DNA of 64,000 bases from assembly GCF_040958095.1 (NCBI RefSeq), contig NC_091193.1:30120470-30184469 (forward strand), in the 5' to 3' direction. Below, piece after piece: positions 6,559-43,815 of this stretch. Both the position numbers and the translations under genes were made by a program. This stretch comes from Procambarus clarkii. Taxonomy: Eukaryota > Arthropoda > Malacostraca > Decapoda > Cambaridae. How positions within the stretch are numbered: position 1 is the stretch's first letter; every line of letters starts with the position of its first letter. Under the pieces are notes generated by a model. The model did no database searches, had not been told where the DNA came from, and saw only the letters and a list, made by a program, of their open reading frames with translations.

Positions 6559-6596
6559 CTTTGGAGGCCCTGGAAACCCCCGTTAGGGTTCTTTGG

Positions 6597-15008: not shown

Positions 15009-15052
<44 letters not shown>

Positions 15053-18079: not shown

Positions 18080-18711
18080 AACGTCTCTGTGGCTCATCTG
18101 GGTGCTAAGTTTCCACCTGTGTCCCCTTGTTCGTGTTCCACCTGTGCTAAAGGGTTTGTCTTTGTCCACTCTGTCAATTCCCCTGAGAATTTTGTAGGTG
18201 GTTATCATGTCTCCCCATACTCTTCTGTTTTCTAGGGTTGTGAGGTTCAGCTGCCTTAGCCTTTCCTCGTAACTCATTCCTCTCAGTTCCGGGACCAGTC
18301 TGGTGGCATTCCTCTGAATCTTCTCTAACTTCGTCTTGTGTTTAACTAGGTATGGACTCCAGGCTGGAGCTGCATACTCCAGGATTGGTCTTACATAAGT
18401 GGTATACAGGGTCCTGAACGATTTCTTACACAAGTTTCTAAAGGCACTTCTTATATTGGCCAGTCTAGCATATGCGGCCGATGGCAGACATAGAATGCTC
18501 CCAACCACATGGGGGGTTTCTATAGGCCATTGCTCCTCGTGCCTCTCTGAGAGGGCCAGGTTCTGGCTCATGGTCCCCGGTAGGCAAGAACTCCAAGCAT
18601 TTTGACTGATGCCAGAAAGCTATACATATCTATTCAGCCTGGATAGCTCTGAGGAGCCTCCGGGACTCACCCAGAAAATGGCGTTTCATTACATTCAACG
18701 CTGGTTTTTTA

Positions 18712-20520
18712 TGCATTTGACTTGGTTCGTGGTGATCCGTCTCCGTTTGTCACGTCTTCAGGTCTTGGCCTACCTCGACAACTGGCTAGTTAAGGCTCCC
18801 AGCTGGTCTGCTTGTCTGCTAGCCAGAGATCTGGGGCCAGATTCACGAAAGCACTTACGCAAGCACTTACGAACCTTTACATCTTTTCTCAATCTTTGGC
18901 GGCTTTGTTTACAATTATTAAAGAGTTAATGAGATCCGAAGCACCAGGAGGCTGTTTATAACAATAAGAACAGTTGATTGGCAAGTTTTCATGCTTGTAA
19001 ACTGATTAATAAATGTAACCAAAGCCGTCAAAGATTGAGGAAAGATGTACACGTTCGTAAGTGTTCTTTTGTGAATCTGGCCCCTGGTTCTTTCCCAGTT
19101 TGCACAACAAAGGTTCCTGGTGAACTAGTGAAAGTCGGAGTTGGTTCTGTTTTGGGTTTAGATCTGGTTGGGCCCGACTTGGGATTCTCGGTTGACGTCA
19201 CTTTCCTTGCCTCCAGCAGCCTTGCTCTGGCTGCATTCCCGCTGTCTGGTAGTGTTGAGGGAGACCCCGTGACACAGTGGTTGCTCGAACAGCTGTACGG
19301 GAGCCTTAACTTTGCCCTTCTGGTTTACCTGTTGGGCAGGGTTTTTCTTCAGAGGCTGTTCTGGTTCCTTCATGGCAGTCCCTTTTGCCACTCACGCAAT
19401 CGCTAGGTACTTTATCTGGTGTCCCTGCGCTAGTTGCTGCATCACCTGCTTCCTCTCTGGGTTTTTACAGGGTTCTCTGCCATGGCGCTGTCTCCGTCCC
19501 TCGATCAAAGTTTTCATAGATGCCTCGGCTGTTGGGGGGTGCACAATATAATGTGGGAATTCGTGGCTGTGTGGCAGGGGCTGCGGAGAGTGCGATTCCT
19601 CGGGCCTCTTCTTTCCACAGAATGGACCATCGATGCCGATTCCATCATCTGGCTTTACTAGATGTTCAGGTGCCCAGATGTCGAACTCTATGTGTTGGCG
19701 TGGTATTGGCATCTGCCTCTTTATGCAGCACTGTTTCCTAACTGCGAGACCCTCATGGCAGATGCCTTTCCGCTGGACTGGTTGAGATGGGGGTTCCTTT
19801 ACCTCATTCCTCTGGTCCAGCTGTTGCTCTGGGTTCTGGCACAGCTGGAGTCTTACAGGGAAAGAGTGATCCTTCTGACTCCTTGGTGGTCGGCCCAGAC
19901 TTGGTTTCAAGTGGTGCTTGGTCAGTGTCTGAACCCCAAGTGTTTTTCTATGGCTCTGCCTCTATCAAAAGGTCAGACGGGTGACGTACCTCGCTGGTTC
20001 GTTCTTCTGAACTTTTTGACAGGTCTTTATCCCCATTTGTATGGTGATCGGGTGGCTGGGTTGATGGTGTCTGACCTGCAGTCTTCTTTTCATTGACAGT
20101 ATGAAACTTCTTAGCGATCTTTTCACCATTTTCTCTCCTTCGTCATTTTCGTTCCGTTTCATTGTTTTGTCCTTTCTTTCTTATCTTTTTTTCTATTAGA
20201 ATCTTCTGCTGAATACTGTCACTTTGTATCATGCAGAATTGGCGGAGACGCTTCTGCTTGCATTTGGAGTGCATACATCTTCAGTCTGGTTTTGTAAGCT
20301 TTCTCGGGCCTCCTTTCACTTCCAGCCTGATCCAACGCTGCCTGGATTTTGGGTTGGGTTCTTTTATTTTCTTTCTTTCTTCCACTCATTTTACAGTGAC
20401 CCCTTTGGTCCAGGATTGTTTTCAGAAAATGTTGTTTTGGTTTCCTTGGTCTCCATCTGTCAGGTTGGTGAGCTTCATGCTCTGGTCTGGCACCAAAGAT
20501 TTTGTTCTTTTGTTTTGTTT
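18712..20520 (+). mobile_element. Older outer DIRS copy D/H, first part (RT to mid-recombinase)
   Basis: It starts in the RT active-site region (VLAYLDNWLVKAPSWSACLL, 18771-18830; the second Asp of YLDD is replaced by Asn). After a MITE it continues through RNase H (VFIDASAVGG near 19510), the linker and the recombinase, up to QRFCSF near 20497-20514. There a younger DIRS (E) is inserted at a T-run. The missing second half of the recombinase lies at 42741, after copies E and F/G. Divergence from the other copies is higher, consistent with greater age. Confidence 0.75.
18833..19084. mobile_element. 252-bp foldback MITE
   Basis: The element begins GGGGCCAGATTCACGAAAG and ends with the reverse complement, TTTTGTGAATCTGGCCCC. 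The inverted arms extend about 80 bases each (left arm through CTTTGGCGGCTTTGTTTACA at 18894-18913; right arm from TGTAACCAAAGCCGTCAAAG at 19013), around a 100-base AT-rich centre. It has no coding capacity. Sister DIRS copies read AGGGATCTGGTTCTTTC across the site, so the host sequence resumes precisely. Confidence 0.85.
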
Positions 20521-20955
20521 TTCTGGGGGGAGCTCCTACGGCGCCCCGGAGTTATCCATGGCTGATATGGATACCCTAACTATTTTGCATCAGTTGATGT
20601 GGGTGTTCTAGCCTAGCGGGGACCACGAGCCAGGACCTGGCCCCCTCACAGAGACACGGGGAGCAATGGCCCCATAGAATTTCACATGTGATTTGGAGCA
20701 TTCTATATCTGCCATCAACTGGACAGGCACCCAGAAAGGTAAGCGCCACAAAACAAACCCCTATTCTGGTTAACAACCAAAATCGACAAACGAATGGACA
20801 GAACTCCCCAAAAGAAAAATGAGCAAACAAGCATGATGTCAAACGAGCCACACCGCATGTCTGTGCAGCTCCCCCCTCCCCGGGAGGGGGAAGGGGTAAG
20901 CCCCAGACCCCCGCGCCGGCGATCCCCGCCTCAGTTCCTCGGCTGATGGGACAGT
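20521..20955 (+). repeat. DIRS left inverted terminal repeat (copy E)
   Basis: This is the reverse complement of 27036-27487. Landmarks are CTGGGGGGAGCTCC at the outer end, GGGGACCACGAGCCAGGACC (20618), TCTGCCATCAACTGGACAGG (20707), AAACCCCTATTCTGGTTAAC (20755), and the palindrome CTCCCCGGGAGGGGGAAGGG (20876-20895). Confidence 0.8.
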
Positions 20956-21590
20956 GCATGGTCGTGTGGCTCCAGCTCCGGTGTTGTCTCAGTGCTGTGA
21001 CTTGTTTTCAGTGCTGCTCTTACAGTGGTCATGTGAGCTGGGAGTAGTATTCTCACGTACTCGGGCTGCATGTGCTTAGGGTCACCTTCCCCGAGTGCCC
21101 TGTAAGTACCGCCCTTGGAGCTTGAGGTTGCCTTCCTCAAGTCACCTTGGGTCTACCTCTGTTGGCTTTTCGCTGCTTGGCGTTTGGCCGCCCCGAGTGT
21201 TTGGTGGTTTTCCTCCCTTGTTTACCTTGGGGTTAGTGGTAGTTATAGCACTGGTGAGGCGCAGGGTACTGCGTAGCTAGTTTTCACCAATAACAGCGGC
21301 TGGCTCTGTTCCCACTGGGTACGTTGTCCTCTTGCCAGGTTCTTCTTTTATTTTTGTTTTGCCTGGTGGGGGGGAGGGGTCTGCCTTGTGTTTTTCCCTC
21401 CCTCTTATATTAGGGTCGTTTGTGTGGTGGCACCACCTGCTTAGCCCTCGCGAGTGGACACGTCTCGTGGGTTCAGCTTTTAACAGTTTGCTTGGTAGTT
21501 GGGACGCCGGTTAGCAGTGCCCTGCCTGGGATAACCGTTAGCAGACCAGTCTAGGGGGCCTGGGAAACCCCGCGGGGGCTCTCAGGTTCG

Positions 21591-24010
21591 ATGGAGGAGA
21601 CCCTTGTGTCCCTTCTCGCTGTGTGCGAGTTTGAGGGTTGCTCTGTCCCCTTGTCTCAGGGTGACTCTCATTGTTTATGCCTCCGTCATGCTGCCTGTTG
21701 GGTCGGTGACACATTCGACCCTGAGTCCTGCGAGCTGTGTTGCTTGTTCGTGACTCAGTTCACCCAGTCTGCTGATGATTTACTTCGGGTGCAGGCAGCT
21801 CGTGCATTGCAAGGTAGGTTTAGATTGTTGCAACGCGCTCGGGTTGTCACTTCCCCGGATGCCCCGAGGCTGCCCCGCTTTGTGTATTGGGACCCGGACT
21901 TGGGGGTGTTGGTCACTTCGGCCTTGGTTCCGTCTGCGCCCCCTTGTTCTTCCCCCTTTGGTGGTTCATTCTGTCCCCCCCTCTTCCCCCCCCCCCCCGA
22001 CTTCCGGCCCCTAAGTGTCTCAGGGCTTTGGGGTCGGGGTAGGGCTTAGAGGTTTCTGAGACTCGGGCAGTTTTGGGGGTTGCCCCGTCCGGGGTGGCTA
22101 CAGAGGCATTCGAGTCTGTTCCTCCGGCCAATGCTCCGGGGTCTGACCAGTGGGCCCCTTTTCTTCCGGCTCTTTTGGCTGCCCCGGCTTTTTCTTGTGA
22201 GGCCGGGGCTTTGGAGGACGGCTCAGCCCCGGGGCCTGGTGTAGAGGCTCCTGGGGCTGAGGAGGAGCGGACTTGGGGGCCTTGGGCTCCATTGGACCGT
22301 GCATGGATGTTCCGTCCTTCTGAGCGGGGCTTACTTTTGCAAGGAGTGGGGTTTTCCTTTCCCCCCTCTGCGTACAATTGGACTTGGGTTCTGCTCCTCC
22401 CTGGGTTCGGTTCCGTGTCCCTGTGGATTCTTCGGTTCAGTCCTTCCGGAGGTTTTCGGCTACCCGCATCTCTCCGCCTGAGGTGCGGTCGACCTTTGCG
22501 GCTTACCTCCTGCGTGACCCGGAGTACGCCTCCATAATGGATCCTTCTTCGTTCAGGTTTGGATCGTCGTGTCCTTCCTGGGTGCGTTATGAGGTTTCGG
22601 GGTCATCCTGGTTTGCAGACTGCCCCTTGTTTTCACTGGATGCTTGGGACTCGTTCTGTCGGACCCCCACGTTTGAGTGGCGTGAGGCATTGACAGTGGT
22701 CCAGGTTTAGCTGGGCGGTGATTTTAAGCACCTTAATGAGTGTCTTCGCTCCTGCCTTTCTGTGGGATGTTGGTGTGGTGCAGCTCCATGTGCAGGTTCC
22801 TTCCCTGTCGGCTGCTCTTGTGGCTTTTTTGGCTTCGGTCCTGCTTTTCTTTTCCCTCCTGGAGCTATCTTCTGACTGGCTTGCGGAGGATGTTGAGGCG
22901 CTTGGGGCCGTTCCTGGGTCTGATGCTTTGTTCTCGGCTGTTCGGGCATGGTCTGCCATGTTGAAGCTTTTTGCGCCGATCCTGCGGGAGGCGTTGCTGT
23001 GGTTTTTCGATGTGCATTTCGCATGTCGTTAGGCGGTCCTTGCTTCCTCCTTGGAATTCGCTTGGGCCCTGGTTCTTAGATTGTCTTCTCCCTTTTGTCC
23101 TCTGCTTTTTGAGGCTTCTGCGGTTGAGCGTTATATTCAGACGACTTCTTCCTCTTGCCACCCTATGTCTGAGTTGTTAGTGCTCAGGGGGACCTGGGGG
23201 TTGTTGACCAGACCACACACTAGAAGTTGAAGGGACGACGACGTTTCGGTCCGTCCTGGACCATTCTCAAGTCGATTGTGATGAGGAGGTAGGGACAGGC
23301 AATAAATAGGCAAGAGAGAGCTGAGGAGGAAAGTAAGGTGTAGGGGATAGTAGTAAAAATGAGAACTGCAGAAGGCCTATTGGCCCATAAGGCGGGCATG
23401 TTCAGGGAAAGGAGATCCAGAAGTGTTGAACTGGAGAAAGTGAGATAAAGAAAGAGGGAGAACTTGCTCAGCAAGACAGTCTTTGAGAAACCTGAGCTGG
23501 TTCTTTCGACGCTTGGCGGCAAGAAGGGAAGATTCAAGGGCGCGAAAAGGCCGTTTGAAGGAAGGTAGAGCATCGAAGAAATTAAACAGAGTAAGACGCG
23601 TACGTGTGGTATCCATATGCAAGCGATGAGTCACAATAACGTGGCTGAAGTATGTTGACCAGACCACACACTAGAAGTTGAAGGGACGACGACGTTTCAG
23701 TCCGTCCTGGACCATTCTCAAGTCGAACCGAAACGTCGTCGTCCCTTCAACTTCTAGTGTGTGGTCTGGTCAACATACTTCAGCCACGTTATTGTGACTC
23801 ATCGCCTGCACCTGGGGGTTCCTTCCCGGCAGGGTCGTACCAGGGCTCGCGGTTCCGTTCGTCAGGGTAGGCCAAAGGTGTCGGGTTTGGTGCTGGTGCC
23901 ACCTGCGGTCCCGCCTGTGCCTGGTCGGCGCGGTGTTCGCTCTGCGTGCAGGTCGGGTTCTCATAAGGGGCAGCGGCCCTTTCGCTGTTCGCCCCATTCA
24001 TGGGGAGATG
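21591..24010 (+). pseudogene. DIRS gag-like ORF1 (copy E), frameshifted and interrupted
   Basis: The ATG at 21591 opens a frame with a Cys/His cluster, CEFEGCSVPLSQGDSHCLC, then LRHAACWVGDTFDPESCELC (residues ~13-52). This suggests a zinc-binding module. A Pro-rich region follows, then a segment reading RDPEYASIMDPSSFRFGSSC near 22517, a helical region with LLELSSDWL near 22850 and LKLFAPILREALL near 22962, and a basic Arg/Gly-rich C-terminus (23820-23990) that may bind nucleic acid. The first frame stops near 22047 and a Penelope-like fragment splits the 3' part. The comparison with DIRS gag proteins is by position and composition only. Confidence 0.65.
23203..23809 (-). mobile_element. Penelope-like element fragment
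   Basis: Perfect 11-bp duplications (ACCTGGGGGTT) flank it at 23192-23202 and 23810-23820. On the minus strand it has a 5' hairpin with arms of about 80 bases (23731-23809 and 23619-23698). A short coding part follows, reading RKNQLRFLKDCLAEQVLP near 23450-23510, like the N-terminal region of Penelope-like proteins. A second copy of the terminal block ends the insert (23203-23275). Terminal blocks in direct and inverted order are typical of Penelope pLTRs. RT and GIY-YIG domains are absent. Confidence 0.7.
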
Positions 24011-25467
24011 GGGGGAGGCTTTCTCTGTTCGCTCATGCTTGATCTCACGATTTGTGGGCTTTTCGGGTCGTTTCTCGCGGCCTGCGGTGGCGTTGGGTGG
24101 CTCCTCTTCCTATGGGGGGTTCAGGGCTGAAGGGGCAGGTTTCCTCTCCTTCGCTCCGTCGGGTCATCTTGGAGTGGGTGCGCTTGGGCGTGGTCGAAAC
24201 GACGCCGTCCCTCAGGTGGGTTTCCTGCCTGTTTCCGGTTCCGAAACGGGACTGTACAGACCTGCGGTTCATTCTGGACTTGTTCCCTCTGAACCCTTGA
24301 GTTTCTTGTCCCTCGTTTTGGATGACCACTCTGTCCCAGGTCCGGCTTCTGTTGGAGCCAGGTGCTTGAATGGTGTCCCTGGACCTCAAGGACGCGTATT
24401 GGCACGTAACTATTCATATGGGGTTCCGGGACTGGCTCAGTTTTGTTGTGGGGCGTCAGTGCTACTGCTTTTGTTGTCTTCCCTACGGGTTGAATCTGGC
24501 ACTTCGCGTGTTTACACGCATTACCCGGGTCGTGGTGGCCTGTCTGCGTCTGTTAGGTATTCAGGTGTTGGCTTACCTCGACGACTGGCTGGTTTAAGCT
24601 CCCAGTCAGTCAGCGTGTCTGCTCGCCAGGGATTTGGTGCTTTCCCAGCTCGCTGGGTTCGGATTTCTGGTGAACTGGCAGAAGTCCCGTCTGGTTCCCT
24701 CCCAGGTTCGGACCTGGCTGGGTCTTGTGTGGGACTCTTGGACCGCTTCCTTGTCTCTTCCTCCAGAGTTTCTCCTTCGGCTGCGGTCTTGCCTGTGTCT
24801 GTTTCTGGGGGGCTTCCGGGTCACCCAGCGGTTGCTCGAGGGTTTGTGCGGGAAACTGAACTTCGCGGTGTTGGTCTACTTGCCGGGTCGGGTTTGGCTT
24901 CGTCGGCTGTTCTGGGTCCTGCGGGGATGTCCCTTCCGCCTCTCTCGCAATTGCTGGGTTCGACCCCTGGGGGCTTTACGTTGACTGCTGTGTCGCCGGC
25001 TTCCTCTTCGGGTTTTTCAGGGTTCAGTGCCTTGGCGCCTGCCCGAGTCTTCACTCGATGTGTTCATGGACGCGTCGTCTCTCGGCTGGGGCTTTGTGAC
25101 CAGTGTTCACCAGGCCGGCCAGGGGCAGTGGGGTCCGTCCTTCCATTGGGTCCACAGCATGGTGCGGGAGTTCACGGCGGTGTGGTTTGCGCTCCGGAGC
25201 GTTCGGGTCGCCCGCAGATCGACGATCCGGCTCCATTCGGACTGCTCCCCGGTGGTTCATTGCCTGCACCGAGGGGGTTTGGTGCAGTCCTTGGCTCTTT
25301 GGGGTTGGTTGCTTTGGGTGCCTCGTTTGCTGAGTTCTTGGGGTTTGGCTCTCCTGGTGGTTTACGTCTGGGGGGTGGGGAGGGTGTCCAACGTCCTGGC
25401 GGATGGCCTATCCAGGTTCGTTCCCCTCTCCACAGAATGGACAGTCGATGCCAATTCCTTCAGTTGA
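24011..25467 (+). pseudogene. DIRS reverse transcriptase-RNase H (copy E)
   Basis: RT motifs are VSLDLKDAYWHVTIHMGFRD (24373-24432, first catalytic Asp), LPYGLNLALRVFTRITRVV (24478-24534) and LGIQVLAYLDDWLV (24556-24597, YLDD box; stop immediately after). A continued thumb follows, GFGFLVNWQKSRLVPSQVRT (24655 on). RNase H shows VFMDASSLGWGF (25062), MVREFTAVW (25159) and LHSDCSPVVHCLHRGG (25225), i.e. the D, E and D of the catalytic set, and a final VSNVLADGLSR with Asp. Two in-frame stops and one frame change separate these pieces. Confidence 0.8.
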
Positions 25468-26842
25468 TTCTGCCGGACGTTCGGGCGCCTGGAGGTGGAC
25501 CTCTTCGTGTCTGCGTGGTCGAGGTGTTTTCCGGTTTATGTGGCGCCCTTCCCCAACTGCGATGCTGTCGGGATTGACGTTTTTCAGCAGGACTGGTCGA
25601 GGTGGGGGTTCCTGTACCTCTTTCCCCCGGTTCGGCTGCTGCTCCGGGCCCTGGCTCGCTTGGAGACCAGGGTCGAGTGGTTCTCTTGGCCCCGTGGTGT
25701 CTGGCCCAGCCGTGGTTTCAGGCGCTGCTTGCCCTGTGTCTGGACCCGGAGGTTTTTCCGCGGCTCCGTCTCTTTCAGGAGATCGGGCCAGTCTGGTACG
25801 TGTCTGGTTCGCTCTTCTCCGCAAGTCTTCCCGTTTGGTGTTTTTGACTCGTGTTTATCACCATCTTAATGGTGAGCAGGTGGCTTCCTTGTTGGTTTCT
25901 CACTTGCTGGTTTCCTCTCGGCGGCAGTATGAAGTTTCCTGGGAATCCTTCCGGTTCTTTTTGGCCCTTCGTCGTTTTTCGTCACTTTCAGTTCGGGTGG
26001 TGTTGTCCTTTCTCTCTTAGTTGTTTCAGGACCGTCATCTGATGCCTAATACTGTTGCCTCATATCGTGCGGCGCTGGCGGAGCCGCTGTGGCTTGCTTT
26101 CGGTATTGATGTTACTTCTGCGCCATTTCGCAAGCTTTCTCGGGCGTTGCTTCACCTCCGGCCTGCTCATGCGCCGCCTGAGCCATCCTGGTCTTTGGAC
26201 AGAGTGCTCATCTATCTTTCTTCTCCTCTGTTTGTTGTGCCCCCTTCGGTTTAAGATTGCTTTGCTAAGGCTCTTTTTCTGTTGGCATTGTCCTCTGGGG
26301 GTCACGTGGCGGAGCTTCATGCTCTTCTCCGGCACAGAGTTTTTGCTCCTTTGATTGCTGTCTTAAGTATGTTCGTCTGCAACCATCTCCCTCTTTTTTG
26401 GCGAAGAATGAGATTGCTGCTTTCCGGAGGGGTCCTTGGGTTGTTGATGCTTGGGTTGTCAGGCTAGGGGGTTCACCATATGTTGTGTCCAGTTGCGGCC
26501 CTCCGCCGTTGTTTGTGCACCACGGCTTCTGTGTCTGGGGATGCGCTTTAGGTTGATCCGGTTTCCTTTCTTCCCTGTTTGCGGGTTCGGGTCTCTCAGG
26601 TCGTCTGCAGGGTTATTAAATCCAGCCAGCCTGCTGTCTATCCCCGTGTTGTGACGTTCGTAAGTTTGCTGCTCCTGCTGCCGTCTTCGGCAATATGTCT
26701 TGGGCTGACTTTCAGGCACGGGGATTTTGGCGGTTGAACAGGGTCCTGGCTGCACGCTCTCTTGTGAATGTTTCTGGGCCCAGTTGGGCCTGTGTTGCTT
26801 TGGGTCAGTGGATGCAGCCCTTTGTCTCGACTTCGCGTTGAG
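25468..26842 (+). pseudogene. DIRS linker and tyrosine recombinase (copy E)
   Basis: The linker reads VDLFVSAWSRCFPVYVAPFP (25495 on). The recombinase core-binding part starts near 25850 and reads MPNTVASYRAALAEPLWLAF (26042). Catalytic box I is weak here (SSGGHVAELHALL near 26294; the first Arg is replaced by His). The second box reads DVRKFAAPAAVFGN (26650-26694): the Arg is kept but the preceding His codon is lost to a frame slip. The tyrosine position reads AARSLVN (Tyr to Ser). Three catalytic positions are therefore altered and the enzyme should be dead. Confidence 0.7.
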
Positions 26843-26902
26843 CAGTGGAGCACCGACTGCCTGTCTGGTAAGTCCCCATGGTTTTCTTTGGTAGTCTTTG
26901 GT

Positions 26903-27000
26903 GAAGTAGCTCCGGGAAGCCATAGGGGCTTTCCAAGGATACCAGTGTTGAATGTAATGAAACGCCATTTTCTGGGTGAGTCCCGGAGGCTCCCCGGCAA
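26903..27000 (+). repeat. DIRS internal complementary region (copy E)
   Basis: The block reads AGCTCCGGGAAGCCATAGGG, then GATACCAGTGTTGAATGTAA, then TCCCGGAGGCTCCCCGG. It complements the outer end of the adjoining left repeat (27490-27530) and the right terminus (27425-27487), as in copies A, J and H. Confidence 0.75.
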
Positions 27001-27035
27001 CCCTCCCGCCCTCCGCTCGCCGTTTTTTCATGGTT

Positions 27036-27487
27036 TTTGATATCCAGCCTCTGAACTGGGGCGAGGATCGCCAGCTCAGGGGGTCTGGGGTTCCCCCCTT
27101 CCCCCTCCCGGGGAGGGGGGAGCTGCGCAGACATGCGGCGCAGCTCGTGTCGACATGCTTGTTTGCTCATTTTTCTTTTGGGGAGTTCTGTCCATTCGTT
27201 TGTCGATTTTCATTGTTAACCAGAATAGGGGTTTGTTTTGAGGCGCTTATCTTTCTGGGTGTCTGTCCTGGTCGATGGCAGATATAGAATGCTCCAAATC
27301 ACATGTGCCATTGCTCCCCGTGCCTCTGTGAGGGGGCCAGGTTCTGGCTCGTGGTCCCCGGTAGGCTAGAACTCCACCCACATTGACTGATGCAAAATAG
27401 TTAGTTTATCCATATCAGCCATGGATAGCTCCGGGGAGCCTCCGGGACTCACCCAGAAAATGGCGTTTCATTACATTCAACACTGTT
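27036..27487 (+). repeat. DIRS right inverted terminal repeat (copy E)
   Basis: It starts GATATCCAGCCTCTGAACTG, passes the palindrome CTCCCGGGGAGGGGGGAGCT (27103-27122) and AACCAGAATAGGGGTTTGTT (27219), and ends with CACCCAGAAAATGGCGTTTC and CATTCAACACTG before the T-run shared with copy F/G. Confidence 0.8.
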
Positions 27488-27930
27488 TTTTTTTCTGGGA
27501 GAGCCCCCTACGGCTCCCCGGAGCTTACTAGGCTGATATGCTAATGTCAGACTTTGGCATCATTCATGTGTATGGAGTTCTTGTGGGCCTACCGGGGACC
27601 ACGAGCCAGAACCTGGCCCCCCATTAGAGAGGCAAGGGAAGCAATGGCCTGTAGAAACCCCCGTGTGATTGGAAGCATTCTACGTCTGCCATCGACCGGG
27701 TTAGGCACCCAGAAAGGTAGGCGTCCCAAAACAAACCCTTATTCTGGTGAAAATTGTAACCAAAGACCGAACGAGTGGATAGAACTTCCCAAACGAAAAC
27801 GAGCAAACTAGTATGACATCACCCGTCATCGCGCCTCTGTCTGCGCTGCTCCCCCCTCCCCGGGAGGGGGAAGGGGTAGCCCCAAACCCACCGCGCTGGC
27901 GACCCACACCCCCAGTTCTTGAGGCTGATG
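27488..27930 (+). repeat. DIRS left inverted terminal repeat (copy F/G)
   Basis: It begins TTCTGGGAGAGCCCCCTACG at the T-run, then CCCCGGAGCTTACTAGGCTG. GGGGACCACGAGCCAGAACC is at 27594, TCTGCCATCGACCGGGTTAG at 27685, and the C/G palindrome near 27850. It is the reverse complement of 42439-42740 and of copy E's right repeat. Confidence 0.8.
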
Positions 27931-28574
27931 TTATTGCCTCGGTTTTGTGCTCTGGCTCTGGTCTTTTGCGGCGCTGCGCCTTGTGTGTGGCTGCTGTACT
28001 TCAGGGGTGTGAGAGCCTGGAGTTATTCTTCAGTACTCGGGCTGTATGCGCCTAGGGTTCCCTTCCCTAGGTGCCTTGTAAGTACTGCCCTTGGAGCTTG
28101 GAGTTACCCTCCACAAGTTCCTCGGGGTCTGCCTCTGTGTGTCCGTTTCACTGCTCGGTTTTTCGGCTGCCCTTTGGGTACTTGGGTGTTTTGTCTCCCT
28201 CATTTACCTTAGGGTAAGAGGCAGTTTTTGCACTGGTAGGGGATGCAGGGTGCTGCACAGCTAGTTGTCACCTATCACAGCGGTCGGCTCTGTTCCTTGG
28301 GGTACGTTGTCCTCTTGCGGGGGTTTTGTTTTTTCTTTTTGTACTTGCTCAGGTGAGGGGGGGGGGGGTTCTGCCCTACTTGCCACTGGTGTTTGGCCTC
28401 ACCCTGATATTTGGTGGTGCCCCCTGCTTGGTCCCCGTGAGTGTACACGTCCCTGGGGTTCACCTTTAGTCTGTTTGGTTGGTAGTTTTTGGACACCAGT
28501 TAGCAGTACCCCTGCCTGGGCACGAGTCCTCTTAAAGTAAACGCTCAGGACCCTGGGAATCCCCTAGGGGATGC

Positions 28575-32138: not shown

Positions 32139-32366
32139 ATTAATATATCAGCGAATTAATATATCAGCATTAGTAACTGGCAACTGACGGCATCAGCTGG
32201 CGGCCTGGGACAACAACGTGTCAACAGTACAGCCTCTGGGACCCTAACCCTCGACCATGCGATAAGTACTGACCATACAGTAGAACAAATAAACATATAT
32301 ATTATTACAAATATACGGTATACATATATTATAAATATATAGATATATACAACAAAACAAGGCAAA

Positions 32367-33318: not shown

Positions 33319-34014
33319 TGGGCTTGCCGAAAAAGTCTCCCAGTCCAACTATCCCTAATAGAATAACCTCATTCATCTTTGCCAACATACAAGGACTAAA
33401 AACAAGAACAAACAACAAAGTACAGTTCATAAATGGTCTCCTCACGGAGTCAAATGCAGTATTTGGCGCTTTCACAGAAACCCATGCAGGGGAATTCTTA
33501 GACAGTGAGATCTAGATTCAAGGATATAACCTATACAGGTGTGATAGGAAAATTAGGTCACATGGAGGAGTGGGTCTGTATATTAGGGAAGACCTTGTAT
33601 ACTCAAAGCTCCTTAACATTACAAATGAGGTGGTAGAGGTACTGGGATCAAAAATAGAGAAAATTAATTTAGTGATTATTCTAATATACAAACCACCAGA
33701 TGCAACGGCTGAGGAATTCACAGAACAGATAAACAAAATAGAGAATAGCCTTGATAATTTGGAGAACCCGATACCTGATATTATCTTTCTAGGTGACTTC
33801 AACTTGCCTAGTCTCAGGTGGAGAATAGCAAACAATAATATTATACCAGAAAATCTATCAGGACCTAACCAACCACAGATTAGAGAACTACTTAGATTCT
33901 GTGACAAATTTTCACTCAATCAGCAGATATCGGAGCCAACAAGAAATTAAAATATTCTAGATCTGGTCTTTACAAACAATGAAGACATTATCAGAGACAT
34001 TACGATATCAGATA

Positions 34015-36135
34015 CAGAGCACCACTTGGTTTCCGAACCCCTTGGGGACGAGACCCGTCGGTTAACATGTAAGTTCGTATACGAGAAATAGAGGGAAAAA
34101 ATAAACTAGAAATGTAAAAAGAAATTTTTCCGAAAAATTTATGAAAAAAACTCTAGGGAAAAAAATCGTCAGGTTCATGGCGTAAATGCGACCGTGTTTT
34201 GTTTGTACTCATCAATAAGTGAAGTCCTGATCCGCTTTATAAAAGTCCTTAATTGTTCCTAACTGATTATTAAGAAGTCTGGCAAACATCCTCTGGATGT
34301 TTCCTGCCAGCCTGCAGGCGCATCCTGCCTAAAATATACGATGATGTACTGTACATTTAAGAAACAAATCTGGGTCACAGGTCTGTGGAGTGTGGTTAGG
34401 CTTACGGAGTCAGCCGGTCCCTCCCCCACCACCATCACACCTCCCCCTCTCCCCCCACCACCGACACACCTCCCCCTCTCCCCCCACCACCGACACACCT
34501 CCCCCACCCCCCACCCCAAACCCATACACACACACACACACACTCTCAAAGGTCACGTGGTTCACAGTTCACTTCAACACCCATATATCGCTTCCTGCCT
34601 GCCTGCCTCCTTCCCACCCTGCCAGCCTGCTTCCTTCCCAGCCTGCCTCCTTCCCAGCCTGCCTGCCTGCCTGCCTCCTTCCCAGCCTGCCAGCCTGCCT
34701 CCTTCCCAGCCTGCCTCCTTCCCAGCCTGCCTCCTTCCCAGCCTGCCAGCCTGCCTCCTTCCCAGCCTGCCAGCCTGCCTCCTTCCCAGCCTGCCAGCCT
34801 GCCTCCTTCCCAGCCTGCCAGCCTGCCTCCTTCCCAGCCTGCCAGCCTGCCTCCTTCCCAGCCTGCCAGCCTGCCTCCTTCCCAGCCTGCCAGCCTGCCT
34901 CCTTCCCAGCCTGCCAGCCTGCCTCCTTCCCAGCCTGCCTCCTTCCCAGCCTGCCAGCCTGCCTCCTTCCCAGCCTGCCTCCTTCCCAGCCTGCCTCCTT
35001 CCCAGCCTGCCTCCTTCCCAGCCTGCTTCCTTCCCAGCCTGCCTGCCTGCCTCCTTCCCAGCCTGCCAGCCTGCTTCCTTCCCAGCCTGCCTCCTTCCCA
35101 GCCTGCCAGCCTGCTTCCTTCCCAGCCTGCTTCCTTCCCAGCCTGCCTCCTTCCCAGCCTGCCTTCTTCCCAGCCTGCCTCCTTCCCAGCCTGCCTCCTT
35201 CCCAGCCTGCCAGCCTGCCAGCCAGCCTGCCAGCCTGCCAGCCAGCCTGCCAGCCAGCCTGCCTGCCTGCCTCCTTCCCAGCCTGCCTCCTTCCCAGCCT
35301 GCCAGCCTGCCAGCCAGCCTGCCAGCCAGCCTGCCTGCCTGCCAGCCTGCTTCCTTTCCAGCCAGCCTGCCTCCCCCCCTGCCATCATGCTAACGGGTAG
35401 TGTGTGTTAGGCTTATCTTCGGGAATGAGCCGGTCTCACCCCCACCACCAACAAACCACCCGCCCCCCTACATCCCATCTCTCAAGGTCACGCGGTTCAA
35501 CCGCGTGACTACCACTCACTCCCTGCCTGCAAGCTAGCCTGCCTGCCTGCAAGCTAGCCTGCCTGCCTGCCTGCCTGTGCCTGCCAGCCTGCCTTTCCCT
35601 CCCTAATTCTCACTACTTCCATCCCTTCCTGCCTACCTCCTAGCATCTCTCCCTACCTTCCCCTCCCTCTTAGCATCTCTCCCTACCTCCTAACATCTCT
35701 CCCTACCTCCCCCTCCCCCCTAGCATCTCTCCTCCCCCCCTCTCTCACTGATTCTCCCCCCCCCCCTCATTCATACTGCCTCCCACCTAAGTTCCATCGT
35801 CCATCCACCCACCAGTCAGCCATCACTGACGCAATGGGTGCATTTGGAGCCAACATGGTGCACAGATGTTTCTTGATTGTGCAGATATGTAAAACAAAAG
35901 CACAGAATGAACATTCCAGCCTTATGGCAATTCAAAATAATAGGAATAATAGGCCGTGAATCTGTGAAGTCACAGTGGGCAAACTGGACCATCGCCCACC
36001 CACCACCACAAGCCGGCGTGACGCTTGGCGGACCCCTTCCTACCCGAACTTTGTTCGGGTAGCATGACTCCCCAACCCCAATCAGGAAACTGGAAGTTTC
36101 GGATAACTAAAGTTCGGAAACCAAGTGGTGCTCTG
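34015..36135. mobile_element. TA-flanked DNA transposon (Tc1/mariner-type, non-autonomous) filled with minisatellite
   Basis: Perfect 24-bp terminal inverted repeats (beginning CAGAGCACCACTTGGTTTCC) lie at 34015-34038 and 36112-36135. They are flanked by TA dinucleotides at 34013-34014 and 36136-36137. Collapsing the element to a single TA restores the LINE frame (ISD-TTYSDHK). The 2121-bp interior has no transposase. It holds (AC)n near 34527, a large C/T-rich minisatellite (34590-35390) and a second one near 35515-35600. Near the right end there is a perfect hairpin, CTACCCGAAC-TTT-GTTCGGGTAG (36040-36062). The superfamily is inferred from the TA duplication and CA start. Confidence 0.8.
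34590..35390. repeat. Minisatellite, CCTGCCAGCCTGCCTCCTTCCCAG-type
   Basis: This is about 800 bases of tandem units built from CCTGCCTCCTTCCCAG (16) and CCTGCCAG (8), most often in a 24-base order, with irregular higher-order arrangement. Long open frames on both strands (Pro/Ser/Ala/Cys-rich on plus, Gly/Arg/Gln/Ala on minus) are by-products of the repeat. A shorter CTTGCCTGCCTGCAAG-type cluster follows near 35520-35600. Confidence 0.9.
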
Positions 36136-36970
36136 TACCACATATTCAGATCACAAGCTCATTGAAGTGCAAACGACCATCAATACTCAGAATAGACCTA
36201 AAACGTTGATAAAGCGAGAGGGGCTATTCAGTAAATTCAATTTTAATAATAAAAGGATAGACTGAGCGATAATAAACAGGGAATTTAAAAACATTCCATG
36301 GGAAACTGTTTTAAGTAATACAAGTCCTACAGAAGGAATAGAAAAACTGACTTCGGAAGCGTATCAAGTCTGTCTGAAGCATGTTTCTTTGAGGAAAGCC
36401 AGAAAGAGATCCTACGTAGAAAGAGAACGCAGACGACACTATAAACGCAAGAAAAAAATAACGGAACTGCTTATGCAGACACGAATTTCCCATCAAATAA
36501 GGAATAATTTAAATAGGGAGATTGAAGAAATTGAGCGGAAATTGAAACACTCGTATGAAACTGAAGAAAGGCAGTTAGAACAGAAAGCAATTCAGGAAAT
36601 AAAGAAAAATCCAAAATACTTCTTCACATATGCAAAATCAAAAGCAAAAACCACTGCCAGTATTGGACCTATACGTACAAGTAAAGGTTTATACACGGAG
36701 GATAACAAAGAACTTAGTGAAATCCTAAAAAAGCAGGATGAGGACATGTTTAAAACTCCAATAAACAACATGAAAGTGGAATATCCAGACAATTTCTCTA
36801 TGTGGGATATTCAAACCCCTGTAAATATAACTGATATCAACACGAGCACACTAAATTTTGAAAGAGAAATTGAAAACATGCCCATGCACTCGGCCCCAGG
36901 TCCAGACTCATGGAATTCAATATTTATAAAGAAATGCAAAGTGCCGGTAGCACAGGCACTCGGTATAGTG

Positions 36971-38615
36971 TAATTACCTAAGTGTAGTTACAGGATGAGA
37001 GCTACGCTCGTGGTGTCCCGTCTTCCCAGCACTCTTTGTCATATAACGCTTTGAAACTACTGACGGTCTTGGCCTCCACCACCTTCTCACTTAACTTGTT
37101 CCAACCGTCTACCACTCTATTTGCGAAGGTGAATTTTCTTATATTTCTTCGGCATCTGTGTTTAGCTAGTTTAAATCTATGGCCTCTTGTTCTTGAAGTT
37201 CCAGGTCTCAGGAAGTCTTCCCTGTCGATTTTATCAATTCCTGTTACTATTTTGTACGTAGTGATCATATCACCTCTTTTTCTTCTGTCTTCTAGTTTTG
37301 GCATATTTAATGCTTCTAACCTCTCCTCGTAGCTCTTGCCCTTCAGTTCTGGGAGCCACTTAGTAGCATGTCTTTGCACCTTTTCCAGTTTGTTGATGTG
37401 CTTCTTAAGATATGGGCACCACACAACAGCTGCATATTCTAGCTTTGGCCTAACAAAAGTCATGAACAACTTCTTTAGTATATCGCCATCCATGTATTTA
37501 AATGCAATTCTGAAGTTAGAAAGCATTGCATAGGCTCCTTGCACAATATTCTTAATGTGGTCCTCAGGTGATAGTTTTCTATCTAGAACCACTCCTAGAT
37601 CTCTTTCTTTATCAGAATTCTTTAAAGATTTCTCACATAATATATAGGTTGTGTGGGGTCTATGTTCTCCTATTCCACATTCCATAACATGACATTTATT
37701 AACATTAAATTCCATTTGCCAAGTGGTGCTCCATATACTTATTTTGTCCAGGTCTTCTTGAAGGGCATGACAATCATCTAAATTTCTTATCCTTCCTATT
37801 ATCTTAGCATCATCAGCAAACATGTCCATATAATTCTGTATACCAACTGGTAGATCATTTATGTACACAATAAACATCACTGGTGCAAGAACTGAACCCT
37901 GTGGTACTCCACTTGTGACATTTCTCCATTCTGATACATTGCCTCTGATTACTGCCCTCATTTTTCTATCAGTCAGAAAATTTTTCATCCATGATAGAAG
38001 CTTACCTGTCACCCCTCCAATATTTTCCAGTTTCCAGAACAACCTCTTATGTGGAACTCTGTCGAAAGCCTTTTTTAGGTCCAGATAGATGCAGTCAACC
38101 CAGCCATCTCTTTCCTGTAATATCTCTGTGGCCCGATCATAGAAACTGAGTAAATTCGATACACAGGATCTTCCTGATCGAAAACCATACTGTCTGTCTG
38201 ATATTATATCATTTCTCTCCAGGTGTTCTACCCATTTAGTTTTGATTAGCTTTTCCAATACTTTCACTATTACACTTGTCAATGATACAGGTCTATAATT
38301 GAGGGGGTCTTCCCTGCTGCCACTTTTGTAGATTGGAACTATGTTAGCCTGTTTCCACACGTCTGCTACGATTCCTGTACACAGGGATGCCTGAAAGATC
38401 AGGTGAAGTGGAATGCTGAGCTCAGATGCACATTCTCTCAGAACCCATGGTGAAACGCCATCTGGGCCAGCTGCTTTGTTCCTCCCGAGCTCCTTTAGCA
38501 TATTTTCCACTTCATCTCTAGACACCTCTATCCGCTCTATGTTGTTCTCTGGAATTCTTATTGTGTCTGGTTCTCTGAAGATTTCATTTTGTACAAACAC
38601 ACTTTGGAACTTTTC
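36971..38615 (-). mobile_element. Rex1/CR1-like LINE, 5'-truncated copy 2
   Basis: This 1.65-kb minus-strand insertion sits inside the LINE RT gene. Its 3' end carries the TTACACTTAGGTAATTA unit at 36971 and its 5' end is near 38615. It is nearly identical to the copies at 58588-60224 and 14664-15801 and carries a continuous RT frame. No long target duplication is visible. Confidence 0.85.
37002..38615 (-). CDS. Rex1/CR1-like reverse transcriptase (intact frame, 5'-truncated)
   Basis: An open frame of more than 530 codons encodes the RT and C-terminal domains. Motifs include NKAAGPDGVSPWVLRECASE (palm entry), NYRPVSLTSVIVKVLEKLI, QYGFRSGRSCVSNLLSFYDR, DCIYLDLKKAFDRVPHKRLF (first catalytic Asp), SGVPQGSVLAPVMFIVYIND, MFADDAKIIGRI (FADD box), KERDLGVVLDRKLSPEDHIK, LEKVQRHATKWLPELKGKSY and the terminal NRVVDGWNKLSEKVVEAKTV. 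The true N-terminus and endonuclease are missing; the apparent Met near 38660 lies in the host LINE. Lack of stops suggests recent insertion. Confidence 0.85.
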   Translation of the reverse strand, partial: EKFQSVFVQNEIFREPDTIRIPENNIERIEVSRDEVENMLKELGRNKAAGPDGVSPWVLRECASELSIPLHLIFQASLCTGIVADVWKQANIVPIYKSGSREDPLNYRPVSLTSVIVKVLEKLIKTKWVEHLERNDIISDRQYGFRSGRSCVSNLLSFYDRATEILQERDGWVDCIYLDLKKAFDRVPHKRLFWKLENIGGVTGKLLSWMKNFLTDRKMRAVIRGNVSEWRNVTSGVPQGSVLAPVMFIVYINDLPVGIQNYMDMFADDAKIIGRIRNLDDCHALQEDLDKISIWSTTWQMEFNVNKCHVMECGIGEHRPHTTYILCEKSLKNSDKERDLGVVLDRKLSPEDHIKNIVQGAYAMLSNFRIAFKYMDGDILKKLFMTFVRPKLEYAAVVWCPYLKKHINKLEKVQRHATKWLPELKGKSYEERLEALNMPKLEDRRKRGDMITTYKIVTGIDKIDREDFLRPGTSRTRGHRFKLAKHRCRRNIRKFTFANRVVDGWNKLSEKVVEAKTVSSFKALYDKECWEDGTPRA

Positions 38616-40144
38616 ATTTATGGAGGAAGAGCTTGGACACGAGGGAGATACCAGATGCACTTAAAGTAGCAGACATAGCCCCTCTACACAAGGGAGGGAG
38701 CAAAGCATTGGCAAAGAATTATAGACCAGTTGCACTAACATCGCACATAATAAAAGTATTTGAGAGAGTGATTAGGAGTCAGGTCACCAATTTCATGGAG
38801 CCCAATGACCTTCACAACCCAGGCCAACATGGATTACGAGTGGGAAGATCGTGCCTCTCACAGCTACTGGAGCACTACGACAAAGTCACTGAGGCATTAG
38901 AAGAAAAACAGAATGCTGATGTTTTATATATGTTGATGATATACACGGACTTCGCAAAGGCTTTCGATAAATGTGACCATGGCGTGATAGCACACAAAAT
39001 GAAGTCAATGGGAATAACCGGTAAAGTAGGACGCTGGATACTCAGTTTTCAGTCAAACAGGACTCAGCGAGTAACGGTCAACCATATAAAATCTAGTCCA
39101 AGTGCAGTTAAAAGCTCTGTACCGCAGGGTACAGTCCTTGCACCGCTGTTTTTCCTTATTCTCATATTAGATATAGACAAAAATACAAGTCACAGCTTCG
39201 TATCATCCTTTGCAGATGACACGAAAATCAGTATGAAAATTATCTCGGCTGAAGACATTGAAAAACTTCAAGCTGATATTAATAAAGTTTTCGACTGGGC
39301 ATCAAAAAAAAACATGATGTTTAACAGTGATAAATTCCAGGTACTCAGGTACGGTAAAAATGAGGACCTTAAACATAATACAGGGTATAAAACACAATCA
39401 ATGTACCCATAGTAGGAAAACAGCATGTAAAGGATTTGGGAATAATGATGTCTGACGACCTAACGTTTCGGGAGCATAACCAAGCAAATATTGCGACAGC
39501 CAGAAAAATGATAGGATGGATTACGAGAACTTTCAAATCCAGGGATCCCATCACAATGGTTGTATTCTTCAAGTCACTTGTGTTGTCCCGTCTTGAGTAC
39601 TGCTCAGTATTCACTTCCCCCTTCAGAGCAGGAGAGATTGCTGAAATAGAGGGAATACAGAGAACATATACAGCACGCATAGACGCGATAAAGCACCTAA
39701 ATTATTGGGATCGTCTCAAAGCCCTCCAAATGTACTCACTAGAAAGAAGACGAGAGAGATATCAAATAATATACACCTGGAAGATACTGGAGGGCCAAGT
39801 ACCAAATCTACATAGTAAAATAACAACGTACTGGAGTGAATGATATGGAAGAAAATGTAGAATAGAACCAGTGAAGAGCTGGGGTGCCATAGGCACAATC
39901 AGAGAACACTGTTTAAACATCAGAGGTCCGCGGTTGTTCAACACCCTCCCAGCAAGCATAAGAAATATTGCCGGAACAACCGTGGACATCTTCAAGAGGA
40001 AACTAGATTTATTCCTCCAAGGAGTGCCGGACCAACCGGGCTGTGGTGGGTATGTGGGCCTGTGGGCCGCTCCAAGCAACAGCCTGGTGGACCAAACTCT
40101 CACAAGTCAAGCCTGGCCTCGGGCCGGGCTTGGGAAGTAGAAGA

Positions 40145-40711
40145 ACTCCCAGAACCCCATCAACCAAGTAACCAGGTATCAACCAGGTCAGGATAAGGAT
40201 TTGGGATGGGACGGTAGGGAAGGAATGGTGACCAACCACTTGGATGGTCGGGGATTGAACAACGGCCTACTCAGTGCCTACAAAATGCCCTACTCCTCAA
40301 AAATCCATTCTGACATAAAGAAACCTTATGAGTCTGTGTAATCTTAACTACTGCACTATTTAACTGCTGCAGAACCTACTGCCTTAGTTACGGGGGGATA
40401 GATGTAATAATTAACTAGGCCACTGGTGGAACTGTGGACACTAGCAAGAAAGGGAACTAGCTGTTCTATCACCTGCCTGGTAGTGAGTACACCCCACCCT
40501 TATCAAGCAGCTGGGAACAACCATGGACATCTTCAAGAGAAAACTAGATTGTTTCCAAGAAGGAGTGCCGGACCAACCGGGCTGTGGTGGGTATGTGGGC
40601 CTGCGGGCCGCTCCAAGCAACAGCCTGGTGGACCAAACTCACACAAGTCAAGTCTGACCTCGGGCCGGGCTTGGGGAGTAGATGAACTCCCAGAACCCTA
40701 TCAAGCAGGTA
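40145..40711 (+). repeat. LINE 3' region with a partial duplicate of its own tail
   Basis: After the RT stop (40140), the 3' UTR runs to CCAGGTATCAACCAGGTCAG (40172-40191). An unassigned stretch follows, with TGGTGACCAACCACTTGGAT (40226), a sequence that looks repeat-derived. At about 40508 the coding tail starts again (ACAACCATGGACATCTTCAA, 40516), running through NSLVDQ to the 3' end. The second tail is either a separate truncated insertion or a local duplication. Confidence 0.6.
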
Positions 40712-40717
40712 TCCCTT

Positions 40718-42026
40718 GTATGTGGCGCCCTTTCCCGACAGCGAGGCCGTTGGGGTCGACGCCTTTCGGCAGGACTGGTCGAGGTGGGGGTTCCTGTACC
40801 TGTTTTCCCCGGTTCAGCTGTTGCTCCAGGTCCTGACTCTCTTGGAGACTTACCAGGGGAGAGAAGTCTTCTTGGCCCACTGGTGGCCGGCCCAGCCGTG
40901 GTTTCAGTCGCTGCTTGCTCGGTGTCCGAACCCGGAGGTTTTTCCACGGCTCCGCCCTTCCAGCAGATTGGTCCTGTCCGCCTCGTGGCTTGTTTGATCT
41001 TCTCGAGTCTTCATGTATGGTATTTTTTACTCTAGTTTATCATCATCTCTATGGTTGTTAGGTGGCTTCCTTATTAGTTTCCCACCTGCAGGCTTCATCT
41101 TGGTGGCAGTATGAAGTTTCCTGGTGGTCCTTCCGATTCTTTTTGTGTCTTCGTCGTTGTGCTTCGCTTTCTGTTAGGGTTGTGTTGTCCTTTCTCTCTT
41201 GGTTGTTCCCGGACCGTCTCCTTATGCCTAACACTGTCACCTCGTATCGTGCGGCGCTGGCAGAGCCGCTGCAGCTTGCTTTTGGTATAGATGTCAAGTC
41301 TGCGTCATTTCGCAAGCTGTCTCGGGCATTGTTTCACCTCCGGCCTGCTCATGCACCACCTGAGCCGTCCTGGTCATTGGACAGGGTGCTCTCTTTTCTT
41401 TTTTCTCCTCATTTTGTTGTAGCCCCTTCGGTTCTGGATTGTTTTTCGAAGGCTCTTTTCCTGTTGGCATTGGCCTCTGGGGGTCGGGTTGGTGAGCTTC
41501 ATGCTCTCCTCCGGTGCAGAAGTTTCTGCTCTTTTGGTCGGGGTGATCGTTTTGTACGTCTGCAGCCTTCTCCTTTTTTTCTGGCAACGAATGAGACTGC
41601 TGCTTTCTGGAGAGGTCCCTGGGTTGTTGATGCTTGGTTGGTTCAGCCGGGGGTGCATCATGTTTTGTGTCCAGTTGCGGCTCTCCGTTGTTATTTGCAT
41701 GCCACAGCTTCTGTATCCGGTGGACGCGCTCTTGGTTGATCTGGTTTCCCTTCTTCCCTGTTCGCGGGTGCGGGTCTCCCGGGTCGTCCGCAGGTTAATT
41801 AAGGCTAGCCAGCCTACGATCTATCCCCGTGCCCATGACATCAGCAAGTTCGTCGCTCTTGCCGCCGTCTTTGGAAATTTGTCCTGGGCTGACATTCGGG
41901 CACGGGGATTTTGGCAGTCGAACAGGGTCCTGGCTGCTCGTTACCTTGTAAACGTTCCTGGGCCCAGTCGGGCTTGTGTTGCTTTGGGTCGGTGGATGCA
42001 GCCAGTTGTCTCGACTTCGCGTTGAG
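40718..42026 (+). pseudogene. DIRS linker and tyrosine recombinase (copy F/G, best preserved)
   Basis: The linker reads YVAPFPDSEAVGVDAFRQDW (40716 on) and the core-binding region MPNTVTSYRAALAEPLQLAF (41224 on). One open frame from 41062 to 41739 carries box I, LALASGGRVGELHALLRCRS (catalytic Arg). After one frame change come HDISKFVALAAVFGNLSWAD (41836 on), with the His but Ser in place of the HxxR Arg, then GFWQSNRVLAARYLVN with the nucleophilic Tyr (near 41940), and the stop at 42024. The enzyme class cuts and rejoins circular retro-DNA through a 3'-phosphotyrosine. The missing Arg and frameshift argue against activity. Confidence 0.75.
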
Positions 42027-42084
42027 GAGTGAGCGGCAACCGCCTCCCGGGTAAGTCCCTATTCTCTTTCCTCTGTGGGTAGTT

Positions 42085-42134
42085 AGCTCCGGGGAGCTGT
42101 AAGCACTGGTTTTCTGGGAGCCCCTCCCAGAAAA
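42085..42134 (+). repeat. DIRS internal complementary region, first half only (copy F/G)
   Basis: AGCTCCGGGGAGCTGTAAGC followed by ACTGGTTTTCTGGGAGCCCC keeps the complement of the left terminus. The second half, and the inner part of the right repeat, are replaced by a LINE tail at 42135, so the insertion was accompanied by a deletion. Confidence 0.6.
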
Positions 42135-42438
42135 TAAAAAGCGGAGGTGCAACAGGTACTCTGAGAGAGAACTCTATCAACATCAGAGGCCCGAGACTGT
42201 TCAACACACTTTCGCTACACATAAGGGGCATAACTGACAATCCCCTCACAGTGTTCAAGAGAGAACTGGATAAGCACCTCCAAAGGATACCTGATCAACC
42301 AAGCTATGACTCATACATCAGGCTGCGAGCAGCCACGTCCAATAGCCTGGTTGATCAGTCCAGCAACCAGGAGGCCTGGTCGACGACCGGGCCGCGGGGA
42401 CGCTAAGCCCCGGAAACACCTCAAGGTAACCTCAAGGT
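42135..42438 (+). mobile_element. 5'-truncated LINE tail inserted in DIRS F/G 3' region
   Basis: This is homologous to 17765-18079, from AAAAGCGGAGGTGCAACAGG to the terminal CCTCAAGGTAACCTCAAGG. It is 304 bases long and 5'-truncated, with a coding strand matching the C-terminal SLRVPVAP-type antisense shadow and the sense LRENSI...QRIPDQP region. Confidence 0.85.
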
Positions 42439-42740
42439 TGGTTGCAATTTTCACCAGAATAGGGGTTTGTTTTGGGACGCCTACCTTTCTGGGTGCCTAA
42501 CCCGGTCGATGGCAGACATAGAATGCTTCCAATCACATGGGGGGTTCTATAGGCCATTGCTCCCCCTTGCCTCTCTAGAGGGGGCCAGGTTTTGGCTCGT
42601 GGTCCCCGGTAGGCCCACAAGAACTCCATACACATAACTGATGCCAAAGTCTGACCTTAGCCTATCATCCTAGTAAGCTCCGGGGAGCCTCTGGGATTCA
42701 CCCAGAAAATGGCGTTTCATTACATTCAATGCTGGTTTTT
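42439..42740 (+). repeat. DIRS right inverted terminal repeat (copy F/G), inner part deleted
   Basis: It runs from CACCAGAATAGGGGTTTGTT (42453) through GGTCGATGGCAGACATAGAA (42506) to CACCCAGAAAATGGCGTTTC (42699) and CATTCAATGCTGG plus a T-run. It is followed directly by recombinase sequence of the outer copy D/H. Confidence 0.8.
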
Positions 42741-43815
42741 TTGCTGCAGCCGGCTCCTTCTGTTCTGATGAAGAATGAGTCGGCAGGCTTTCAGTGTGGT
42801 CCTTTAGAGGTGGCTGCTTGGCTGGTTCGACTGAGAGTGCATGATGTGCTCTGTCTGGTGGTGGCTTTACTCCATTACCTTCGTGTCACTGGTTCTATTT
42901 CCGTAGACTTGTGAGTTGATCCGATTTCCCAGGTTCCCTGTTCCAGGGCTCGTATTTCTCGGGTTGTCCTCATGTCATTAAGTCTAGCCAGCCTGCAGTC
43001 TATCCTTGTGCTCATGATATCCAGAAGTATGTCGCTCTGATGGCTGTCTTTGGTAATATGTCTTGTGCTGATATTCGAGTGTGGTGGTTTAGGAGGTTGA
43101 CCAGGGTCTTTGCTGCCAGGAATCCTGTTAACTTTTCTGGTCCTCTGTGGGCTTGTGTAGCTTTGGGCCGATGGTTTCTTCTTCTTCTTGATACCTGCAG
43201 TGCTGCCTTCTTACTGGTAAAGGCCCAATTTTGTCCTTGTCTATGGTTAGTTAACTTCAGGGAGCTAATGGGGCTCCCCACAGAAAACCAGCGTTGAATG
43301 TAATGAGATGTCGGAGTTTGAGTGAGCCCTGGAGGCTCTCTGACACCCTCCCTTTCCCAGGTCATTGGTGTATTTTATCATAATTGAACTGGACAGTGGG
43401 AGGCTCAGCTGACCTGGGCCAGCTCCCTCCCTCCCCAAATGAGGGGGGTAGGTGGGGCAAACTGACAGGGGGCTAATTTCACATAATTTTGGTTGGTTGT
43501 TTTCATTGTTGGCAAGGTTGTGGCCTCGGTGTCGTTTTTTAAATCATGGAGTAGCTTGTTTTAATTTGCCTATCTTTGTGGGTGCTTCCCTGGTGGTGGC
43601 AAAGATGATAAACTTTAAGTGTAAAGTGTTCATAGGCCATCACTCCCTTTGCCTCTGTAGAGGGGGGCCCAGGTTCTGGCTCTTGGTCCCTGGTGAGCTA
43701 ATAGAACTCCGCAACTGATGACTACTAGTAGTATGGCACTTAATCAGTGTGATAGCTTCAGGGAGCCTCCGTGGCTTACCCAGAAATTGGCATTGTATTA
43801 CATTCACGCTAGTTT
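42741..43815 (+). mobile_element. Older outer DIRS copy D/H, second part (end of recombinase, complementary region, right repeat)
   Basis: The recombinase resumes with CAGCCGGCTCCTTCTG (QPAPS), which in copies A and F/G directly follows the GFCSFGRGDxFVRW segment where part D stops at 20520. HDIQKYVALMAVFGNMSCAD is at 43014 on, and the Tyr position reads AARNPVN (Tyr to Asn). The complementary region is at 43255-43345 and the right repeat ends near 43815 (CCCAGAAATTGGCATTGT). Divergence is clearly greater than in E and F/G. Confidence 0.75.

Follow-up and report, generated by a model that had tools for sequence, protein, structure and literature searches.

Evidence that two DIRS1-like segments in a crayfish locus are parts of one old element split by nested insertions

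DIRS1-like retroelements have NTT ends and inverted terminal repeats, and an internal complementary region holds their circular junction; they insert at a short core that matches the target, and the target is not duplicated (Piednoel et al. 2011, PMC3266345). In the model given there, a circle joined at a short core recombines with a genomic site of the same short sequence. The superfamily has been detected in shrimps, lobsters and crabs by polymerase chain reaction of a partial pol region (PMC2685390), DIRS elements are reported to make up less than 1% of the repeat content in almost all decapods (PMC10454600), and Dictyostelium DIRS-1 is reported to integrate preferentially into existing copies (PMC5633606). 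Here we analyse a 64,000-nucleotide stretch of the crayfish Procambarus clarkii genome (NC_091193.1, positions 30,120,470 to 30,184,469; hereafter the window, from whose first letter positions are counted). It holds seven DIRS copies, labelled A, B, C, D/H, E, F/G and x. We find that D (18711-20518) and H (42742-43815) are, with a probability of about 0.93, parts of a single old DIRS1-like element and together its right-hand ~47%, and that this element was later split by nested DIRS copies and then by long interspersed nuclear elements (LINEs).

The copies in the window share with the elements described in PMC3266345 their inverted terminal repeats, internal complementary region, NTT ends (TTT here) and core insertion. 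Self-comparison and inspection of the termini, from which the layout was derived, resolve the seven copies into nine pieces, all on the forward strand and in one orientation. Inverted terminal repeats align over 410 bases in E (91% complementary) and 270 in F/G (93%). At their left ends E and x have T(4-5)CTGGG, and B a slightly altered version of it. GCTGGT(6-8) stands at the right ends of A, B, C and G; H's own end has decayed to TTTCTT. Within the internal complementary region the joined ends recur as their reverse complement, AAAA lying in the centre. In A, C, E, H and 15 of 16 genome loci, 41-66 bases of this internal copy align with the right end, against 14 in the remaining locus, L004. 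The AAAA of the internal copy and the six T of most sampled right ends set these copies apart from the elements in PMC3266345, and E, at 6.97 kb (~6.4 kb minus its insert), is slightly longer than the longest (6283 bp) of the 28 elements listed in Table 3 of that paper. The decapod families of PMC2685390 are described as members of the same superfamily.

Right ends were sampled on contig C1 from 40 regions (L040-L079), a non-random set formed by the first places listed for the terminal motif. There were 56 motif matches, 21 of which were set aside as internal copies; 7 of the remaining 35 proved internal by BLAST, leaving 28 right ends with 20 distinct flanks. All 28 carry at least four T, where the search pattern itself required three. 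The run is six T long in 17 of them, internal copies having mostly four. T runs also stand at the junctions in the window, no target duplication beyond the T run was seen there, and these runs fit the circle model.

Compared by tblastn and blastn with E, F, G, A, B and x, and placed in a tree, D extends from the reverse transcriptase to the first part of the recombinase gene; H holds the remainder of the recombinase gene, the internal complementary region and the right terminus. Between them lie E (20519-27490), a complete-length younger copy with ~430-bp inverted terminal repeats, and, head to tail against it, a third copy whose left part is F (27491-32136) and whose right part is G (40712-42741). 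D ends in ...CTTTTGTTTTG, followed by T(5)CTGGGG, which is the left end of E. E adjoins F directly, with nine T at the junction, and G, ending in GCTGGTTTTTTT, closes with GCTGGT(7) before GCTGCAGCC, the start of H.

Relatives elsewhere in the genome carry these two edges together. The genome measures 4.03 Gb; the best 40 candidates were scored in each similarity search, and contiguity was assessed in 24 genome loci resembling H or D plus the window copies A, E and G. Homologues of D's end and H's start lie side by side in 21 of these 27 sequences (19 genome loci together with E and G), 20-26 bp apart in 20 cases and 53 bp apart in one; both sides were not seen together in L006, L007, L008, L027, L034 and A. 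Four of the 19 joined loci nearly duplicate another, which leaves 15 distinct. D retains part of the 20-26 bp gap, GTTTTGTTTT. By our own arithmetic, independent breakpoints in a 6.4-kb element would agree within 30 bp with a chance of about 1%.

Separate midpoint-rooted trees of D and H (22 and 31 rows) place the two pieces in the same clade, with support of 100/100 and 100/98, alongside L021, L023, L024, L025, L027, L029 and L034. E, G and A are grouped elsewhere, with a young family of nearly identical copies (L030-L038 minus L034). When comparable stretches are used (about 110 bases from D, 200 from H), the rankings of sequences by identity to the two pieces agree (rho 0.52, p 0.015, n=21; after near-duplicates are dropped, rho 0.45, p 0.068, n=17), and the five loci closest to D's end (81-83%), namely L003, L005, L021, L029 and L004, are also the five closest to H's start (76-84%). 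It is because relatives carry D and H side by side, and because separate trees assign both to one clade, that we read them as one element.

D's left edge is no arbitrary start. The right terminus of C (11379-16260 plus 18476-18710, the latter part being the terminus) adjoins it at 18711, at a T run inside the reverse transcriptase gene, and this is a second insertion into D, by copy C. C is likewise without its first ~350 bp, and a single deletion could have taken both this and the left part of D.

An earlier sequence-only reading had described D and H as two halves of one old copy, its recombinase frame broken exactly where intact copies read through. Its coordinates for D and H are correct to 1-3 bp, and we found no overlap between the two pieces, which share a clade. 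The single element stands. The halves do not, as D+H corresponds to about 3.0 kb out of 6.4 kb when measured in E's coordinates, and the frame break matches intact copies in location, not to the base: about 13 bp next to the junction has, by our reading of the alignment, been lost from D.

That loss is one of several points that weigh against a single split element. A search for D's left part turned up only a ~100-bp scrap on the forward strand at 10527-10625, tentatively assigned, which matches the polymerase sequence upstream of D's edge at 71-75% over 76-96 bases and at 80% over 41. The tree run flags D's letter make-up as unlike the rest of the alignment. Pfam gave no recombinase or reverse transcriptase call on the DIRS frames, RT_RNaseH in a piece of E falling below the cut-off (E = 0.017), and a Pfam recombinase search with pieces of A, G, D and H returned no match save one irrelevant sub-threshold match. 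A YLDD-like motif was seen by eye in the DIRS frames, and a further motif resembles that of a tyrosine recombinase. Whole-length identities to D and to H are weakly correlated per locus (rho 0.33, p 0.24, n=14), and the best whole-length relatives outside the inverted twin described below differ, being C84:23498194 for D and C66:31691455 for H. The last two observations would suit an origin of D and H from two separate old DIRS copies whose remains flank E and F/G by chance. We consider this very unlikely, given that H's best matches (L003-L005) carry D's end directly alongside and, when like stretches are compared, belong to the five loci closest to both pieces, that the trees put D and H in one clade, and that the two break positions agree within about 26 bp.

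Unequal recombination between neighbouring DIRS copies, in place of insertion of E and F/G into D, would sit well with the common orientation of all seven copies and with the exact abutment of E and F. Recombination between copies is, however, expected to leave internal joins in register, and on their outer sides both E and F/G seem to be bounded by true termini, the same left or right ends being found at other copies in the window and at genome loci; we judge this account extremely improbable.

Relative ages were taken from two clocks, the first comparing the right end with the internal copy within one DIRS copy, the second comparing left and right inverted terminal repeats. On the first clock H differs at 12/57 positions (21%), C at 7/58, A at 4/60 and E at 0/55, and H lies above both E (p = 0.0003) and A (p 0.03). 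Eight young-family loci (two near-duplicate pairs, six distinct) show 0-3 differences in 60-66, so this clock starts near zero in that family. The internal copy of G has been lost to a LINE tail (42137-42438), with 9 bases aligned, and F/G thus has no first-clock value to set against H. On the second clock E differs at 37/410 (9%), F/G at 18/270 (6.7%) and B at 22% of 280, D/H offering no such pair; E and F/G do not differ significantly (Fisher p = 0.32), so no order between them is given. Tree end branches are 0.19 for D, 0.17 for H, 0.14/0.16 for E, 0.11/0.12 for G and 0.053/0.06 for A. In the young family they are 0-0.014, and the terminal motif TTTCATTACATTCAACGCTGGTTT has 10,100 exact matches in the genome, internal copies counted in; from these two figures together we conclude that a young DIRS family has probably undergone a recent burst.

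The order of events follows from nesting, tree end branches and within-copy clocks taken together. The sequence-only reading had proposed D/H, then the less diverged E and F/G, then LINEs, then insertions within those LINEs. Lower divergence is borne out by the tree end branches for both E and F/G and by the first clock for E, and the first step of the order by nesting, the same branches and the first clock (H against E). The later LINE layers are likewise upheld, by nesting and by a forward LINE present in both the window and its twin, inside which a reverse LINE of the window has no counterpart, the twin having an empty site there. Some clock values pull the other way. In the D/H clade L003, L005, L007 and L008 show 10-11 differences in 58-60 on the first clock (two distinct pairs, L003/L005 and L007/L008), L029 shows 10/43 and L025 5/41. 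Since other members of the clade also have high values, part of H's value may reflect a subfamily offset, not age. E's two clocks also disagree, at 0/55 and 9%. The outcome is a single locus where several layers of insertion follow a consistent order and where tree branches and terminal differences are broadly concordant. This nested record is datable yet ordinary in kind; it is useful for calibrating terminal-repeat divergence as a clock and leaves knowledge of DIRS elements unchanged.

The twin supplies the empty sites for the last layer. Window positions 1-63377 recur inverted at C44:29802565-29858759 on the same contig, 262 kb away and 97-99% identical. Summing the nine main blocks ourselves, we count 530 mismatches over some 50,700 aligned bases (1.05% substitutions); the repeat block beyond 60269 and hits on LINE copies at other places were excluded. 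Junctions D|E, E|F and G|H are all common to window and twin, and so is the forward LINE in F/G. Simple empty sites in the twin correspond to a LINE tail in B, a miniature inverted-repeat transposable element (MITE)-like insert in D (18835-19083), the reverse LINE inside F/G's LINE and another reverse LINE at 58589-60268. The twin is also without the reverse LINE in C, holding there 1,389 bp of other sequence that is partly C's recombinase gene; it has 56 extra bases at 19537, and is short of about 2.1 kb around a simple repeat (34016-36135) and of 2.1 kb of E. A late insertion in the window was ruled out for the latter, the stretch being colinear with copy A, and it is therefore a deletion in the twin. 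The three reverse LINE copies (14666-15886, 36972-38620 and 58589-60268) are about 98% mutually identical, none is in the twin, and their family is recently active.

The twin is probably the other haplotype, an unpurged haplotig, since its match stops at a 5000-N gap and 8 of the 20 distinct C1 flanks have a second occurrence, which for four of them is in mirror order (4.59-5.75 Mb). The assembly as a whole probably holds unpurged haplotigs; on C48, two pairs of loci are repeated directly at a distance of ~2.87 Mb. The inverted placement on one contig at 262 kb, together with the level of substitution, would also suit a true segmental duplication, with the empty sites then paralogous. Against this stand the gap, the duplicated and mirror-ordered flanks, and the exon at 2782-4930, a match to BROMI that differs between window and twin at 7/2169 bases and has a stop in neither copy. 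We think a duplication unlikely, and it would affect the dating of the last layer alone.

The history that best explains the locus is as follows. An old DIRS1-like element inserted long ago in a probable intron of a broad-minded (BROMI/TBC1D32) gene. Other DIRS copies later integrated into it, as circles joined at a T core if the model in PMC3266345 applies: C entered D/H's reverse transcriptase gene, while the recombinase gene received E and F/G, which lie directly against each other. D's left part may have been lost after C's insertion. LINEs next landed in F/G, and a further LINE entered one of these after the split of the present haplotypes (or duplicates).

As with Dictyostelium DIRS-1 (PMC5633606), DIRS copies here sit in DIRS copies. 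Unlike in that system, only one of the 20 distinct C1 flanks has DIRS sequence within ~400 bases, which does not support a preference of these elements for landing in DIRS copies. Junctions of the head-to-tail kind seen at E|F are rare, with 48 matches genome-wide beside the 10,100 of the terminal motif; two of the 48 are E|F and its twin, and many of the 48 have 5-7 T and may be internal copies. The left-to-left junction motif gave 0 matches, with no baseline count and so no conclusion. The ratio of TTTT to AAAA is 8 to 13.5 in A, C, D+H, E, F/G and x and 5 in B, against 0.2 to 3 in four neighbouring non-DIRS stretches. As TTTT far exceeds AAAA in the sense strand, the common orientation could follow from composition alone: T-core circles would usually enter older DIRS copies in the same orientation, locking nested copies head to tail. 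We offer this tentatively and would not expect it to hold; only three nested insertions in the window bear on it, a non-independent sample. Under it, the core would persist at each end of an insert and leave the site open to a further insertion, as at D|E|F.

Splice sites and frame, judged by eye, suggest that the exon following 2782-4930 lies at 43928-44095, although Pfam recognised nothing in this proposed exon. From these, positions 4931-43927 are probably a single 39-kb BROMI/TBC1D32 intron filled with DIRS and LINE copies. The block separating F from G (32137-40711) consists of the forward LINE and simple repeats, has no assigned strand as a whole, and shows by eye a short direct repeat, TCCCTT, at both edges; the reverse LINE at 36972-38620 lies within it on the reverse strand. 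A further LINE tail is found inside F (about 29912-30139), and E carries an unrelated insert at about 23200-23816. The other DIRS copies are A (1-2493), B (about 5359-10080) and x (about 45475-50440). Short tandem repeats spaced 8 to 28 bases apart form long arrays at 34490-35400 and 62066-63991. A long open frame at 51790-54084 is followed by a second at 54840-56123 that matches the transposase DDE_Tnp_1_7, which we take to be piggyBac-type. Lastly, there is a transfer RNA match on the reverse strand at 50868-50938, in surroundings that to us look like a short interspersed nuclear element.

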